DNA from: Amycolatopsis cihanbeyliensis
GTDB taxonomy: Bacteria > Actinomycetota > Actinomycetes > Mycobacteriales > Pseudonocardiaceae
Reading direction: 5' to 3'
Length of the DNA stretch: 64,000 nucleotides
Assembly (NCBI RefSeq): GCF_006715045.1
Contig: NZ_VFML01000001.1
Location: 2,882,501-2,946,500, forward strand
A program made the position numbers and the translations under genes. Under the pieces are notes generated by a model. That model did no database searches, was not told the DNA's origin, and worked only from the letters and a program-made list of their open reading frames with translations. Of the stretch, positions 10,618-39,585 are shown in pieces; within the stretch, counting starts at the first letter, position 1, and each line of letters opens with the position of its first letter.

Positions 10618-11850
10618 GTGGTTCGGCATTCGGCCACGCTGGCCATCAACGAACGGCTGGAGGCCAAGCGCGCGGCCGGCGAGCGGGTGCTGCACCTCGG
10701 TTTCGGCGAGGCGGGTCTGCCGGTACCGCCGGCGGTAGCCACGGTCCTCGCCGAGGCGGCGGGCAGCAACGGCTACGGCCCGGTGGCCGGCTCGGCACGG
10801 GCCCGCGCCGCCGTCGCCGGGTACTTCTCCCGGCGCGGCCTGCCCACCGAGGCCGACCGGGTGTTACTCGCCCCTGGCAGCAAGGCACTGCTGTTCGCGC
10901 TGCTGTCCGTGTTGCCCGGCGACGTCGTGCTGCCCCGGCCGTGCTGGGTGAGCTACGCCGCCCAGGCCGCGCTGGCAGGCAAGCAGGTGATCGACGTGCC
11001 GATCCCGCCGGCGGCGGGCGGGGTGCCGGAGCCGCGGGTCCTGGAGACGGCACTGGCCGAGGCCCGCGCGGCCGGGGCCGAGCCGGGCGTGCTGATCCTG
11101 ACCGTGCCGGACAACCCGACCGGCACCGTGGCCGGACCCGAGCTGATCGAGCAGGTCTGCGCGGTGGCCGACCGGCACGGGTTGGTGGTGATCTCCGACG
11201 AGATCTACCGCGACCTGGTGCACGAGGGCAGCGTGTACAGCCCGGCGACCGTGCTGGCGCACCGCACCGTGGTGACCGCGGGGCTGAGCAAGAACCTGGC
11301 GCTCGGCGGATACCGGATCGGGTTCGCCAGGCTGCCCAGCGGCCCCGGCGCGACCCGGTTGCGCACCGAGCTGATCGGAGTGGCCAGCGAGGTCTGGTCC
11401 AGCCTGCCCGCCCCGATGCAGGAGGTCGCGGCCTACGCGCTGGACGAGCCGGCGGAGGTACGCGAGCACATCGAGCGTGGCCTGCGCCTGCACCGCACGG
11501 TCGCGGCGGCGGTGCACCGGGAGTTCCTGGCCGCGGGTGCCTCCGCCCGCGCGCCGCAGGCGGGTTTCTACCTCTACCCGGACCTGGAGTCCTGGCGCGG
11601 CAAGGGCTTCGCCACCGGCAAGCAGCTCACCGAGCATCTGCTGAACCGGCACGGGGTCGGGGTGCTCGCCGGCGTGGAGTTCGGGGACGACCCCGGTGCC
11701 CTGCGCTTCCGGGTGGCCACCAGCCTGCTCTACGGCAGCAGCACCGAGCAGCGCTGGGCCGCCCTGCACAGCGAGGACCCGCTGTCCTGCGAGTGGATCG
11801 CCGAAGCACTGACCCACCTGCGCACCGCCCTCACCCCCAGGGAGCCCTGA
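10618..11850 (+). CDS. PLP-dependent aminotransferase, class I/II
   Basis: A 410-residue fold-type I aminotransferase. GTG 10618 is preferred since GGGAGG (10606-10611) lies seven bases upstream. The earlier in-frame ATG at 10567 sits inside the operator palindrome. Signature residues are the Asn of PDNPTGT, the Asp-Glu-Ile-Tyr of ISDEIYRDL (pyridine ring contact) and the Schiff-base Lys in TAGLSKNLALGGYRIGF. The arginine for the carboxylate is in LRFRVATS. It resembles AspC/ArAT-like enzymes acting on amino acids, but the substrate cannot be fixed. The divergent RpiR regulator suggests induction by a metabolite. Its stop codon lies inside the outer arm of a long hairpin shared with the convergent DtxR gene. 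Confidence 0.85.
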   Translation: MVRHSATLAINERLEAKRAAGERVLHLGFGEAGLPVPPAVATVLAEAAGSNGYGPVAGSARARAAVAGYFSRRGLPTEADRVLLAPGSKALLFALLSVLPGDVVLPRPCWVSYAAQAALAGKQVIDVPIPPAAGGVPEPRVLETALAEARAAGAEPGVLILTVPDNPTGTVAGPELIEQVCAVADRHGLVVISDEIYRDLVHEGSVYSPATVLAHRTVVTAGLSKNLALGGYRIGFARLPSGPGATRLRTELIGVASEVWSSLPAPMQEVAAYALDEPAEVREHIERGLRLHRTVAAAVHREFLAAGASARAPQAGFYLYPDLESWRGKGFATGKQLTEHLLNRHGVGVLAGVEFGDDPGALRFRVATSLLYGSSTEQRWAALHSEDPLSCEWIAEALTHLRTALTPREP

Positions 11851-11925
11851 ACGTGGCGTTCAGGGCGTCAGACGTCTCAAAAGTGCCGTTCGGGACGTCT
11901 GACGCCGCGATAGCCACGTTCAGGG
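11845..11925. terminator. Two-tier bidirectional hairpin
   Basis: The outer arms, CCCTGAACGTGGC (11845-11857) and GCCACGTTCAGGG (11913-11925), are perfectly complementary. The inner arms, GGCGTCAGACGTC (11864-11876) and GACGTCTGACGCC (11894-11906), are also perfect. They are separated by unpaired internal loops of 6 and 6 bases and a 17-base apical loop. The element lies exactly between the convergent aminotransferase and DtxR genes, so bidirectional termination is likely. No T-run is present. Confidence 0.75.
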
Positions 11926-11928
11926 CAT

Positions 11929-12660
11929 TTACCGCATGGCTACGGAGAGGGCCTGGGCGATCTCCCTGCCGAGGGCGTGCGTTGCCGAATCCGGTGGGGC
12001 ACCGACCCGCACCACGACCGGGCCGCCGAAGGGCTGCCGCTCCACCACCTCGATCCGCTCGCCGAGGCTGATCGCGTGCTCGGACAGGTACCGCAGCAGC
12101 TCGGGATCGGTGTCCCAGACCCGGACGATCTCGCCGACCGCCCCCGGCTGCAGCTCGTCCAGCAATCGGGTCGGCAGCTCCTCGATACTGCCGTCCGCGG
12201 CCGGGATCGGGTCCCCGTGCGGGTCGCGCACCGGGTTGCCCAGCTTGGCAGCGATGCGTTCGATCAGCAGGTCGGAGACCACATGCTCGAGCAGGTCGGC
12301 CTCGGGATGCACCTCGTCCCAGGTGTAGCCGAGCTCGGAGACCAGGTAGGACTCGATCAGCCGGTGCCTGCGCAGCACCGACCGCGCCAGCAGCCTGCCC
12401 TCCCCGGTGAGCTCGATGCCCCGGTACGGCACGTGCGCCACCAAGCCCTGCTGGGACAGCTTGGTCACCATCCCGGACGCCGAGGACGGGCTCACCGCCA
12501 GCCTGGTCGCCAGCGAGGTGTTGGTGACCTCCTCGCCACGCTCCGCGAGGCCGTAGATCGCCCGCACGTAGTCCTCGATGGCGGAGGATCGCCGGTTGGG
12601 GCTGTCCGAGCTTGTTTCTGAACGCGCGACACGATCGGCTCGGCCGGGCTGGGACTCCAT
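11929..12660 (-). CDS. DtxR/MntR-family metal-dependent repressor, start inside a repeat
   Basis: A 243-residue member of the DtxR family: N-terminal winged HTH (residues about 28-90, AIEDYVRAIY, SSASGMVTKL), the metal-binding/dimerisation domain (about 90-165, with HRLIESYL, LEHVVSDLLIERI) and a C-terminal SH3-like FeoA domain (about 175-240). Family members bind Fe2+ or Mn2+ and repress uptake or siderophore genes. ATG 12660 follows GGAAGGTG. Start and signal both lie inside dispersed repeat copy A, and no ATG, GTG or TTG occurs between the repeat edge and the HTH core except a GTG within helix 1. The first 17-18 residues are therefore repeat-encoded. Isochorismate synthase about 8 kb away is a possible but unproved target. 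Confidence 0.82.
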   Translation of the reverse strand: MESQPGRADRVARSETSSDSPNRRSSAIEDYVRAIYGLAERGEEVTNTSLATRLAVSPSSASGMVTKLSQQGLVAHVPYRGIELTGEGRLLARSVLRRHRLIESYLVSELGYTWDEVHPEADLLEHVVSDLLIERIAAKLGNPVRDPHGDPIPAADGSIEELPTRLLDELQPGAVGEIVRVWDTDPELLRYLSEHAISLGERIEVVERQPFGGPVVVRVGAPPDSATHALGREIAQALSVAMR

Positions 12661-12830
12661 CACGAACGTCACCTTCCGCAGGTCGTGCGCCCGACCTCGC
12701 CGCTCGTGGGCAGCTTGCCGCGAGCACCGTGGCGCGAAGCGCATCCGTGTGGGCGACGGTGGGAGACGGGCGGGCGCGTCCTCCTACTCGCCTCGTGTGG
12801 TCGAGTCCAGTTCGGGAACAGACGCTCGAG
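12608..12830 (-). repeat. Dispersed repeat, copy A (223 bp)
   Basis: Read on the minus strand it aligns along nearly its full length with copy C (27181-27400) and, apart from a central segment, with copy B (20377-20540). Its ends are imperfect inverted repeats: GAGCTTGTTTCTGAAC at 12608 and, inverted, GTTCGGGAACAGACGCTC up to 12830. The central part contains CCCGTCTCCCACC. The element covers the promoter-proximal region, ribosome binding site and first codons of the DtxR gene. No transposase is present, so it is MITE-like at most. Confidence 0.8.
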
Positions 12831-12863
12831 CATGGCACCCACGATACGGCGACCGGCCGGCGT

Positions 12864-19683: not shown

Positions 19684-20376
19684 GTGATCGAGTGCGCTGT
19701 CTGGTGGGCCGCCCCGCTTCCCGCCGCCCCGGAGTTCCTTGCCCTGCTCACTCCCGTCGAGGAAGGCCGGTACGAGGCCTACCGGCAGGACATCGACCGG
19801 CGCCGGTTCCTGACCGGCCGAGTGCTGGCCAGGACGGTGGCCGGGCAGCGGCTCGGGGTGGAGCCCGGTTCCGTGGAGTTCGACGCGACCTGTGATGGCT
19901 GCGGCAAGCCGCACGGTGCGCCCCGGGTGCCCGGCGCGCAGCTTGCGCTGTCCATCTCGCATTCCGGGGACCGGATCGGGGTGGCCTTCACCGAGGGCGC
20001 CCCGGTCGGCCTGGACGTGGAGACCGCGGGCCGCAAGGTCGAGGACTCGCTGATCGAGTACGCGTTGAACGACACCGAGCGTCAGTCGCTGCACGCGCTG
20101 TCCGCCGAGGAGCGCTCCGCCGCGTTCTTCACCTTCTGGACCCGCAAGGAGGCGCTGCTCAAGGCCACCGGCCGCGGGCTGCGGCTGCCCCTGCGGGGCA
20201 TCACGCTCTCACCCGCGGGCGAGAGTGCCCGCCTGGTCTCCTCCGCGGAGTCCGTGCTCACCCCCGAGCACACCCGGATGGCCGACCTCGACCCCGGCGA
20301 GGGCTACCGCGCCGCCGTCGCCGTCCTCACCCCCGAGGACATCAAGGTCACCGAGCACACCTGGCAACTACCCTGA
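19684..20376 (+). CDS. Sfp-type 4'-phosphopantetheinyl transferase
   Basis: A 230-residue Sfp/AcpT-type enzyme that transfers phosphopantetheine from CoA to a serine of carrier proteins. It has the Mg2+-binding motif VGLDVE (about 109-114) and FFTFWTRKEALLKATG, the W-x-x-KEA-x-x-K signature, plus SISHSGD upstream. GTG 19684 is the start, with no upstream ATG. It probably serves polyketide, nonribosomal peptide or siderophore synthases elsewhere, since no such synthase is in this window. It converges on isochorismate synthase with repeat copy B between them. Confidence 0.9.
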   Translation: MIECAVWWAAPLPAAPEFLALLTPVEEGRYEAYRQDIDRRRFLTGRVLARTVAGQRLGVEPGSVEFDATCDGCGKPHGAPRVPGAQLALSISHSGDRIGVAFTEGAPVGLDVETAGRKVEDSLIEYALNDTERQSLHALSAEERSAAFFTFWTRKEALLKATGRGLRLPLRGITLSPAGESARLVSSAESVLTPEHTRMADLDPGEGYRAAVAVLTPEDIKVTEHTWQLP

Positions 20377-20540
20377 CAGCCTGTTCCTGAACTGGACCTT
20401 GCCGATCGAGTCGGGTGGAAGAACTCGCGCGGCGACGGCCCACGGGCGGCGAGGCCGGGCGCATGACCTGCGAAGGTGGCTGCAGTGACGGAGTCCGAGC
20501 CCCGCCGAGCCGACCGTGTCGCGAGTTTGGGAACAAAGCA
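20377..20540 (+). repeat. Dispersed repeat, copy B (164 bp)
   Basis: It starts one base after the phosphopantetheinyl transferase stop with AGCCTGTTCCTGAACTGG and ends near GTTTGGGAACAAAGC, an imperfect terminal inverted repeat. It matches copy C at both ends but lacks about 55 bp of the centre. It contains GAAGGTG and then GTG 20485, which opens a 19-codon frame (TESEPRRADRVASLGTKH) ending at TGA 20542-20544. The same frame begins the DtxR gene in copy A. It ends 13 bp from the stop of isochorismate synthase. Confidence 0.8.
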
Positions 20541-20552
20541 CTGAGTGACCGC

Positions 20553-25323: not shown

Positions 25324-25451
25324 CCCGGCCGGAACCCTCGCAACAAATGTGATTCGATTTCATGTTTGGGTTCCGTGGGGTTCATGGGTCGGCTAACCTC
25401 GGCCGGGATCGTGTGACCGACCGCGGATCGAGAGCGCTGGGGGTTGCCGCC

Positions 25452-27182
25452 GTGCCCGAACTGACCAGACGTGGGTTCGTCGCCGTTGCCGGAGCCTCCG
25501 GTCTCGGGCTGCTGCTGGCCACCCCGACCGCCCGGGCCGTGGACAGGGCACTGCGGGAGACCACCCGGCGCACCGTGAACCCGGCCGGGACCACGCTGGA
25601 GGCGGTGGCCGTGCCGGTGACCCGGGGTCCCCGGTACACGCGACTCACCGAAGGACCCGGCTGGCCCCTGGTCGTACGGGCGGACCTGGTCGCGGCCACC
25701 AGCGGGCGGGACGAGCGGCGCACCGCGCTGGCCTCGTTCGTCCAGTTCACCGACATGCACATCACCGACTCCGAGTGCCCGGCCCGGTTCGAGTACCTGC
25801 ACCCTTTCGTCGGGTCCGCGCACCGTCCACAGGAGACGCTCGGCCCCGTGTCCGCGGCTTCGCTCGTGCGCAGGGTGAACGCCGTGGCGAACGGCCCGTT
25901 CACCGGCAGGCCGTTCGACTTCATGATGACCACGGGGGACAACACCGACAACCACGAGCACATCGAGCTGTCCTGGTTCCTCGGCATCCTCAACGGCGGC
26001 ACCATCACCCCCACCAGCGGCGACCCGCGGCGCTACGAGGGCGTGCAGGACTCCGGTTCGGCGCACTACTGGAACCCCGGCACCCGGCTGGACGACGACT
26101 ACACCGCCAAGGGCTTCCCGCGGCTACCCGGCCTGCTGGACGCGGCGATCGGGCGGTTCGACTCACCCGGCCTGGACATCCCGTGGTATTGCACATTCGG
26201 CAACCACGACAACACCCCGGTCGGCACGCTGCCCGCGAACATCCCCGGCATCGAGTACTGGTACACCGGCGGGCACAAGATCATCGGCAAGGACGAGAGC
26301 ACCAGCCGCAAGCTCGCCGACGCCATGCGCAAGCCCGGCGCGACCGTGCCGGCCACCGAACTGTTCGGCAACTCCGGCCTGATCCGCGAGGTCACCCCGG
26401 ACGAGCGGCGCGCGCCGTACAGCACCGCGGAGTTCGTGCGGGCCCACCTCGACCCGGCCAACACCGGGGCCGGCCCGGTCGGCCACGGCTTCACCGACGG
26501 CAACGCCGACGGCCGCGATGTCTACTACACCTTCCGCATCGCCGAGGGTGTCACCGGGATCAGCCTGGACACCACGACCCTGGGTGGCTTCGCCGACGGC
26601 TCGATCGGGCTCGGCCAGTTCCTCTGGGTCGAGCGCACGCTGCGTGCGGGCAGCTCCGCCTACTACGACGTCTGGGGCAGCAAGGTCACCCAGGACGTGA
26701 GCGACGAGCTGTTCATCCTGTTCAGCCACCACACCAGCGACTCGATGGGCAACCCGCTGCCCGACTCGCGGCACCCGCTGGAGCCACGGCTGAACGGCGA
26801 GACGTTCGTCGGGCTGCTCAACCGGTTCCCGAACGTGCTGGCCTGGGTGAACGGCCACCAGCACCTGAACAAGATCACGCCCCACCCCGGTAGCACGCCC
26901 GCGCGGGGGTTCTGGGAGATCAACACCGCCTCGCACATCGACTTCCCGCAGCAGGCCCGCGTGATCGAGGTGGCCGACAACGCCGACGGCACGCTGTCGC
27001 TGTTCACCACCCTGGTCGAGGCCGAGGGGCCGTACGCAGCCGACTACGACGACACCACACCCCCCGCGCTGGCCTCGCTGTACCGCGAGCTGTCCTACAA
27101 CGACCTGCACGCCGACCGCACCCGCGAGGGCGCGGGCCCCGATCGCAACACCGAGCTGCTGCTGGTCGACCCGCTGGCCTGA
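25452..27182 (+). CDS. Tat-exported metallophosphoesterase, TIGR03767-like
   Basis: A 576-residue protein from GTG 25452 with a GGGGG upstream. The N-terminus has a twin-arginine signal (TRRGFVAVAGASGLGLLLA) and an APTARA-like cleavage region. The calcineurin-like phosphoesterase core shows D-x-H in QFTDMHITD, GD in MTTGDNTDN, GNHD in FGNHDN and late histidines in ILFSHHTSD and VNGHQHLN, so the dinuclear metal site is complete. The overall layout matches the actinobacterial TIGR03767 family of unknown substrate. It is likely folded in the cytoplasm and exported. Its stop codon overlaps the first bases of repeat copy C. Confidence 0.85.
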   Translation: MPELTRRGFVAVAGASGLGLLLATPTARAVDRALRETTRRTVNPAGTTLEAVAVPVTRGPRYTRLTEGPGWPLVVRADLVAATSGRDERRTALASFVQFTDMHITDSECPARFEYLHPFVGSAHRPQETLGPVSAASLVRRVNAVANGPFTGRPFDFMMTTGDNTDNHEHIELSWFLGILNGGTITPTSGDPRRYEGVQDSGSAHYWNPGTRLDDDYTAKGFPRLPGLLDAAIGRFDSPGLDIPWYCTFGNHDNTPVGTLPANIPGIEYWYTGGHKIIGKDESTSRKLADAMRKPGATVPATELFGNSGLIREVTPDERRAPYSTAEFVRAHLDPANTGAGPVGHGFTDGNADGRDVYYTFRIAEGVTGISLDTTTLGGFADGSIGLGQFLWVERTLRAGSSAYYDVWGSKVTQDVSDELFILFSHHTSDSMGNPLPDSRHPLEPRLNGETFVGLLNRFPNVLAWVNGHQHLNKITPHPGSTPARGFWEINTASHIDFPQQARVIEVADNADGTLSLFTTLVEAEGPYAADYDDTTPPALASLYRELSYNDLHADRTREGAGPDRNTELLLVDPLA

Positions 27183-27400
27183 GCTTGTTCCTGAACTGGA
27201 CTTTTGCTGCTCGAGGTGAGTGGAAGAACTCGCCCTCCCGTCTCCCACCACCACCCAAACGGAGGCGCTGACGCGCCACTCTGCTGAGCGGCGAAAGCCC
27301 GCGGGCGGCGAGGCCGGGCGCGTGACCGGCGAAGGTGACGTTTCGTGGCGGAGTCCGAGCCCGGCCGAGCCGACCGTGACGCGAGCTTAAGAACAGGCTC
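27181..27400 (+). repeat. Dispersed repeat, copy C (220 bp)
   Basis: It begins GAGCTTGTTCCTGAACTGG at 27181, within the phosphoesterase stop codon, and ends GCGAGCTTAAGAACAGGCTC at 27400. The ends form an imperfect inverted repeat (14 of 19). It contains the central CCCGTCTCCCACCACC segment lost from copy B. GAAGGTG precedes GTG 27345, which opens the same short frame (AESEPGRADRDAS) as the other copies. There is no transposase gene and no clear target-site duplication. Confidence 0.82.
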
Positions 27401-39496: not shown

Positions 39497-39510
39497 GGCC
39501 GTGATGCTAT

Positions 39511-39585
39511 GCCCACCCGTCGCCCAACCGCCACCCCCCAAGGAGGCGCGCCGCGCCACTGCGCCCACCCGTCGCCCAACCGCCA
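39511..39585. repeat. Repeat fragment with 23-bp direct duplication
   Basis: GCCCACCCGTCGCCCAACCG and three more bases occur identically at 39511-39533 and 39563-39585. The stretch 39515-39560 matches the central part of dispersed repeats A and C. It lies between the PfkB start and the TetR stop. It looks like a partial, locally duplicated copy of the same element family. Confidence 0.65.

Follow-up and report, generated by a model that had tools for sequence, protein, structure and literature searches.

The dtxR start region and its insert

The window, by which we mean the whole 64,000-nt stretch of Amycolatopsis cihanbeyliensis DNA that was analysed, carries on its minus strand a gene for a metal-dependent regulator of the DtxR/MntR type (11929..12660 when read from ATG 12660; 243 aa), the first ~17 codons of which derive from a short repeat. 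Both the winged HTH and the metal-binding/dimerisation domain expected of this group are present: Fe_dep_repress (PF01325), Fe_dep_repr_C (PF02742) and FeoA score above cut-off, their matches are nearly full length, and that of the HTH begins at residue 26. An NCBIfam search of the product gave no equivalog at its cut-off, and its nearest named relatives belong to two Amycolatopsis species (85% and 83%). Directly 3' of the gene, between two convergent ORFs, lies a strong, terminator-like inverted repeat with 38-nt arms (84%; 11844-11926).

The repeat at this locus, copy A (12608..12825, minus strand; end positions by family register), is the long form of a MITE, and splits the old start codon of dtxR from the gene body. 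Target-like triplets flank it (CGA 12826-12828 and GGA 12605-12607), the target duplication itself having decayed. To its left, and directly adjoining it, the ancestral start region is retained: a -10-like box, TATCGT (12841..12846, minus strand), stands 7 nt 5' of the old start, ATG 12831..12833 (minus strand), the same spacing as in relatives. From this ATG, an upstream ORF of 54 codons (12669..12833, minus strand) enters the element and is closed by TGA 12671-12669. This stop codon is located immediately 3' of GGAAGG (12672..12677, minus strand), a Shine-Dalgarno-like motif within the element that is partly in a predicted apical loop, and 5 nt ahead of GTG 12663. The latter (12663-12661) and the adjoining ATG (12660-12658), at 12658..12663 on the minus strand and thus 8 and 11 nt past GGAAGG, are the proposed new starts of dtxR.

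An earlier note on this DNA had placed the ribosome-binding site, start and first codons of dtxR within copy A, and had seen no usable start between the end of the element and the HTH core. Both observations hold, as no in-frame ATG, GTG or TTG occurs between the element end (12608) and the HTH, the first being GTG 12567-12565, inside EDY-V-RAIY in helix 1. Further in-frame starts exist higher up in the element (GTG 12672 and ATG 12744), and no ribosome-binding site is visible ahead of ATG 12744. With no ATG, GTG or TTG left between element and HTH, GGAAGG followed by GTG 12663 or ATG 12660 is the most plausible start, and we infer that translation of dtxR initiates at one of these two codons.

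dtxR in related genomes

An orthologue of dtxR is found in all 80 genomes of the genus, and start regions were read in 29 of them, the best-scoring among the 79 other genomes. In each of these 29 relatives TANNNT, a loose motif, is present exactly 7 nt ahead of an ATG or GTG start, which in turn lies 5-12 codons ahead of the HTH motif. By its sequence, the dtxR of relatives therefore looks like a leaderless gene on account of its order of TANNNT, 7 nt and start, and thereby resembles the leaderless genes described for actinobacteria (PMC4633059). Unlike in such genes as described there, the insertion puts a long 5' region and an upstream ORF before the body of dtxR (PMC4633059). The earlier note had suggested comparing DtxR N-termini with those of relatives lacking the repeat, and this comparison bears out its view of the start region: in the printed sequences of the 29 relatives no trace of the element was seen, except in the sister species (G001). 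In alignment with one relative whose gene begins ATG-TCT-GAC-AGC (L155), the old dtxR site furthermore reads as CTGA, which is the target of the element. In G001, the N-terminus of dtxR retains GTTCAGAAACAA, the right end of the element, as a 12-nt scar; here a GTG at leaderless spacing is followed by CGTTCAGAAACAA, again matching that right end. We read this scar as the remainder of an element that was present in the common ancestor and was mostly deleted later.

Comparison of the dtxR body in our genome (G000) and G001 gave 31 synonymous changes against 2 nonsynonymous ones (omega 0.022), and omega to three outgroups is 0.17, 0.13 and 0.11 for our gene versus 0.18, 0.15 and 0.10 for that of the sister. 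Judged by these substitutions, the gene is under strong purifying selection. This bears on whether dtxR was simply disrupted, leaving a non-expressed gene or an N-truncated remnant starting at GTG 12567. The element does separate promoter and old start from the gene body, and GTG 12567 does exist. However, the excess of synonymous changes to the sister, the outgroup omegas that match those of the sister's gene, and domain matches that are nearly full length, with an HTH whose helix 1 would be cut by a start at 12567, all argue against such a loss, which we consider improbable.

Instead, we think it very likely that a non-autonomous IS5-type MITE entered dtxR, and that the protein now starts at a start codon borne by the element. 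The insertion, at CTGA/CCGAG, would have hit codon two or three of a dtxR/mntR-type gene that was then leaderless, and would predate the split between this species and its sister. When read outward, the right end of the element would provide GTG/ATG in the exit frame behind a Shine-Dalgarno-like motif, and it may be because of this that dtxR survived, its protein now presumably opening with the ~17 element-coded residues. The promoter and the old start would still precede the element, the latter opening the upstream ORF, and initiation at the new start could be direct or, more likely, aided by termination-reinitiation, given the upstream TGA directly behind the new ribosome-binding site. In the sister, the later deletion would have brought a GTG back to leaderless spacing. 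As such, dtxR may provide a natural series for the gain of a new translation start, from the gene without the insert, through the gene carrying it, to the gene that has lost it again.

A family of short repeats with an IS5-type anatomy

Within our genome, BLAST returned at least 44 matches to copy A and at least 52 to copy C, counts that are lower bounds with 40 of 166 and of 181 candidates scored, respectively. For further analysis 44 copies were extracted from our genome and 38 from G001 (82 in total). The element is short (160-243 nt between its ends, target letters included), multi-copy, and without a transposase. Among the 31 both-ended copies of our genome, 14 are of the long form (225-243 nt) and 17 of a short form (165-174 nt) from which the middle is absent, again with target letters included. 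Matches better than 1e-10 were confined to our genome, G001, G027 and G036 among the 80 of the genus, and no Rfam family reached its gathering score in the window.

The termini are inverted repeats, CTGAGAGCCTGTTCCTGAAC ... GTTTAGGAACAGGCACTGAG. When up to 3 mismatches were allowed, the 19-mer at the end had 58 matches versus 1 for a reversed control, and the repetition thus greatly exceeds what chance would give. Flanks are mostly CTGAG, CTGAC or CCGAG; an identical 5-mer is present at both sides in 26 of 52 both-ended copies, of which 19 are CTGAG, letters that are favoured in this count because the patterns used for finding the ends contain them. In 32 of the 53 copies with a placeable left end (82 copies, G000 and G001), the left TGA is the stop of a coding-like upstream ORF, suggesting that the element often lands on stop codons and restores them. 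The two other copies in the window, both on the plus strand, are of this kind: in the short-form copy B (20377..20541; locus L053) the upstream ORF is closed by the left TGA (20374-20376), and in the long-form copy C (27183..27400; locus L013) TGA 27180-27182 ends the ORF at 25362-27182. As had been noticed before, both carry GAAGGTG followed by a GTG (20485 and 27345, respectively) at the position of the dtxR start in copy A. The frame of GTG 20485 stops at the element's own end, and that of GTG 27345 leaves the element and runs for 54 codons on a strand without a gene.

One exact match to the 19-mer in our genome is located 220 bp ahead of an IS5-type transposase domain at C1:2478535. At L202 the 19-mer is identical beside a piece of an IS5-family transposase (NF033580 above cut-off); of the two IS copies looked at, L202 is truncated and L204 frame-broken. 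Both ends are present in another IS copy, which measures 873 bp. Taken together, the ends and the 19-mer match beside an IS5-family transposase give the repeat the anatomy of an IS5-type MITE, which would probably be mobilised by such a transposase. Unlike IS5-family insertion sequences, it measures ~160-240 bp and lacks a transposase; when its interior was compared by eye with two IS copies, no likeness beyond a 12-nt stretch was seen. Three insertions are common to both species by both flanks (44 versus 38 copies), a fourth, in a LacI gene, was recognised by eye, and the dtxR scar adds to these. Empty insertion sites are present in relatives.

Some members of the family are smaller still. 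In our genome, L288, L289 and L295 are forms of ~98 bp without the hairpin, and L292 and L293 are nearly bare pairs of ends, all five standing after CTGA and looking like internal deletions of the same element. Moreover, the middle segment (CCCGTCTCCCACCACCACCCAAACGGAGGCGC, around positions 50-106 of copy C) occurs alone in several genomes of the genus and side by side in G027, G036 and L016, by which it appears to be a separate repeat nested in the element.

So is it the short frame itself that is selected? The frames that open at the new start in copies A, B and C are similar, as the earlier note had stated, but over the family the frame behind the start is not constant: of 44 copies, 21 have a start where dtxR has it, 13 have it one base off, and hence in another frame, and 10 have it at neither position. 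A selected short peptide (T/A-ESEPGRADR), encoded by the element with its own start and fused to dtxR, could account for the likeness among the three copies and for the 21 with a start at the same position, but it leaves the 13 and the 10 unexplained, and on these frame counts we discarded it. Furthermore, the letters that encode ESEPGRADRV make up the 3' side of a stem, the two arms of which vary together at several pairs (e.g. A-U/G-C) among 18 long and 34 short copies. In genes captured in both species, omega of the element-derived codons is 0.37 for DUF427 and 1.1 for LacI, which amounts to drift in these two pairs, and the 26 element-derived codons of the SDR pair show no change at all; all three retain the gene frame, with 6-nt indels just past the element end in SDR and LacI. 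A conserved peptide is thus not supported, and the element-coded residues do not seem clearly constrained. Because the frame of the start is inconstant and the residues drift, selection seems to keep an in-frame start rather than a peptide, and we regard a selected peptide as extremely improbable.

The picture of the hairpin given by covariation among copies is mixed. The alignments of the 18 long and 34 short copies fold better than 20 column shuffles (z values of -5.6 and -8.4), and in the consensus of the short form the loop of this stem holds the ribosome-binding site and start. When six pairs were scored over 79 copies, with three others left out, more paired cells and more both-sided changes were counted than in any of 500 shuffles, but the number of pair types, 6 versus a mean of 7.2, was reached by 500 of 500, in both cases with kinship ignored. 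Column conservation is 0.92 for the stem, 0.87 for the Shine-Dalgarno letters and 0.82 for the other loop positions, the second being only slightly above the third. Folding of single copies is weak, with z values of -1.3 (A), -2.6 (C) and -0.1 (B), and the whole region of copy A folds no better than its shuffles, 177 of 200 being at least as good.

Probable captures at other gene starts

Starting at the right end of each copy and searching away from the element, we found 18 insertions at gene starts in the two sister species, dtxR included, and for 17 of these, element-free relatives show the original start region. The exception is L243, for which neither a relative nor a Pfam match was found. 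Besides dtxR, and named by Pfam family, our genome has such captures at L003 (Asp23), L014 (SDR), L015, L018 (Redoxin), L022 (DUF427), L025 (GH57), L026 (dioxygenase), L183 (alpha/beta hydrolase), L185 (SDR) and, outside the 44 copies, L273 (LacI). Those of G001 are L191 (glycosyltransferase), L243, L248 (ATP-binding), L253 (HIT), L258 (CN hydrolase), L259 (HpcH/HpaI) and L261 (MarR), and the captures of DUF427, SDR and LacI are common to both. At the GH57 gene, seven relatives begin with (G/A)TG AG. ... GAG (or GAA) GG, a sequence that in our genome is split at CCGAG; conversely, our genome reads ATG ACC GAG GTG ACC where G001 is split at CCGAG by L259. The left half of the element is lost in L183 and L253. 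L258 is an ambiguous capture, with a GTG kept at the third codon, and relatives of L022 outside G001 match over only ~90-125 nt at 74-79%. Two candidates in the sister, L247 and L260, did not hold up as captures, and another, L265, was left out of the second concatenated search.

Captures occur in two frames. In the first (f0; 14 rows) the GTG/ATG is ~60 nt ahead of the right end, and in the second (f1; 6 rows) an ATG is found ~83 nt ahead of it, behind GGGGAGG- or GGCGAGG-like letters. An in-frame element start is present in 14 of 14 f0 rows versus 21 of the 68 other copies, and in 6 of 6 f1 rows versus 10 of 76 (82 copies each), figures that describe rather than test, since the classes were set after the open frames had been seen, which makes them partly circular, and two shared insertions are counted twice. 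A screen of flanks only, over 52 both-ended copies, found 10 in which the joined flanks restore a start on the left, and the element start is in-frame in all 10, compared to 6 of 12 copies whose gene starts on the right; 7 of the 10 also have a right start, those of L020 and L028 being natural, and L003 was missed by this screen. A pass by eye over the copies saw no gene with its start cut off and unreplaced, a decayed gene being hard to spot in this way.

Several individual sites are worth describing. A third species, G036, has its HIT gene captured (L310) as in G001 (L253), with an empty site in our genome, which may reflect either parallel insertion or loss in one line. In the LacI gene (L273), ~150 bp lie between two ATGAC copies within the element, and the sequence is again homologous to that of the sister from the ATG onward, with GGAGGAG standing ahead of this codon. 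The SDR gene at L214 in G001 begins with ATGACTGAGAGTCTCGCC, 3 nt longer than in G004, and is possibly the scar of a lost left end.

Does the old start still reach the gene? When traced in all 20 capture rows, the old frame ends between -19 and +17 nt from the new start in 14, a range that was picked after the values were seen. It ends 5 nt ahead of the new start in dtxR, L003, L015, L022, L253 and L261, overlaps it (+4) in L185, L268 and L259, and ends at +17 in L018, L026 and L258, and at -19 in L014 and L191. In L025 and L183 it ends far away, and in L243, L248, L256 and L267 it reads through the element in frame into the gene. The upstream frame thus stops short of the gene in 16 of 20 rows, and 16 of the 18 insertions (all except L243 and L248) leave the gene out of reach of its old start in one species or both; for LacI this holds for our copy, in which 45 open codons ahead of the ATG end at a stop. 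The four read-through rows can be plain in-frame inserts that need no new start, those of L243 and L248 included. The proposal in the earlier note of a portable translation-initiation module, captured as a new N-terminus, is supported by comparison, 17 further insertions looking alike, most of them with empty sites in relatives. The DUF427 insertion has two outcomes: in our genome (L022) the old frame closes 5 nt ahead of the element start, and in the sister's copy of the insertion (L267), where two 1-nt gaps in the left half make the difference, it reads through.

Since the old frame ends close to the new start (19 nt or less) in 14 of 20 rows, restart by coupling is likely. For dtxR, ribosomes would load at the leaderless start 12833, come off at TGA 12671 and begin again 5-8 nt further along, the internal site being weak by itself, and we lean slightly towards this as the main mode in which the element-borne start is used. 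It would agree with the promoter and leaderless ATG being retained at 7-nt spacing, and with the short distances, at 5 nt, +4, +17 and -19, in 6, 3, 3 and 2 rows. Conversely, two rows end far away and four read through, and 13 of 44 non-captured copies share the geometry in the f0 phase. Part of this geometry is automatic, as the sequence of the element is fixed: in these 44 controls with a left end, 13 end near and 2 read through in the f0 phase, and 4 end near in the f1 phase. Among 31 both-ended copies, the f0-phase entry frame ends in AAGGTGA in 5. A stop directly beside the start had at one point seemed peculiar to dtxR, L003 and L022, an idea we dropped given its looser form in 14 of 20 rows.

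A more far-reaching reading would be that the element has evolved into a 'soft-landing' transposon, whose insertion at operon junctions and gene starts is nearly harmless because its CTGA/CCGAG target restores the stop of the left gene, and its right-arm hairpin, which would be maintained for this effect, re-starts the right one. We hold this to be conceivable though doubtful. Just as tentatively, the right arm may have ribosome-binding sites and starts for either of the exit frames open to such a target within a coding gene. Ribosomes terminating in the right arm could then be caught, with N-termini rewritten as a by-product, which we again put forward with reserve. The tracing of the old starts (14 of 20 rows near) strengthened this reading a little. 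The many captures may also have a simple origin, in that the target motif occurs in common gene beginnings (ATG ACC GAG, ATG ACT GAC) and ends (CTGA), and only insertions that keep a start survive. By our preferred reading, similar captures would have taken place at these other genes as at dtxR.

Small MITE-like repeats of enterobacteria, RU-1 (ERIC), RU-2 (YPAL) and RU-3, have reading frames fused to annotated genes, and form N-terminal parts of some proteins, e.g. YP_0349 and YPO1552 (Delihas 2007, PMC2759123). The present element resembles these in the in-frame fusion of a small MITE-like repeat to genes. The RU repeats are described as fused frames, and 'start codon', 'Shine', 'ribosome' and 'initiation' are absent from the main text of that paper; unlike RU repeats as described there, our element displaces an identified ancestral start, and brings its own Shine-Dalgarno-like motif and start (PMC2759123). 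Rickettsia palindromic elements and the 107-bp Correia repeat of Neisseria are short palindromic mobile repeats in coding genes, which, according to the account in PMC2229807, the host tolerates. The 4 of 20 capture rows that read through in frame are alike to these, unlike the 16 in which the upstream frame fails to reach the gene and translation must start anew. Among the literature matches listed, we found no account of this family, nor of native starts being replaced by a MITE with a ribosome-binding site of its own. Our results suggest that repair of the stop and start at its landing site can allow a transposon to spread through a gene-dense genome, and repeats should be considered when starts are annotated in such genomes.

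The window holds two other sets of repeats. Between 3521 and 5214 there are seven to nine coding repeats, many of them 138 nt apart, which we take to be probably a propeller of the WD40 type. At 39498-39585, a 36-nt repeat is present in two copies 52 nt apart, ending in CCCACCCGTCGCCCAACCGCCA.
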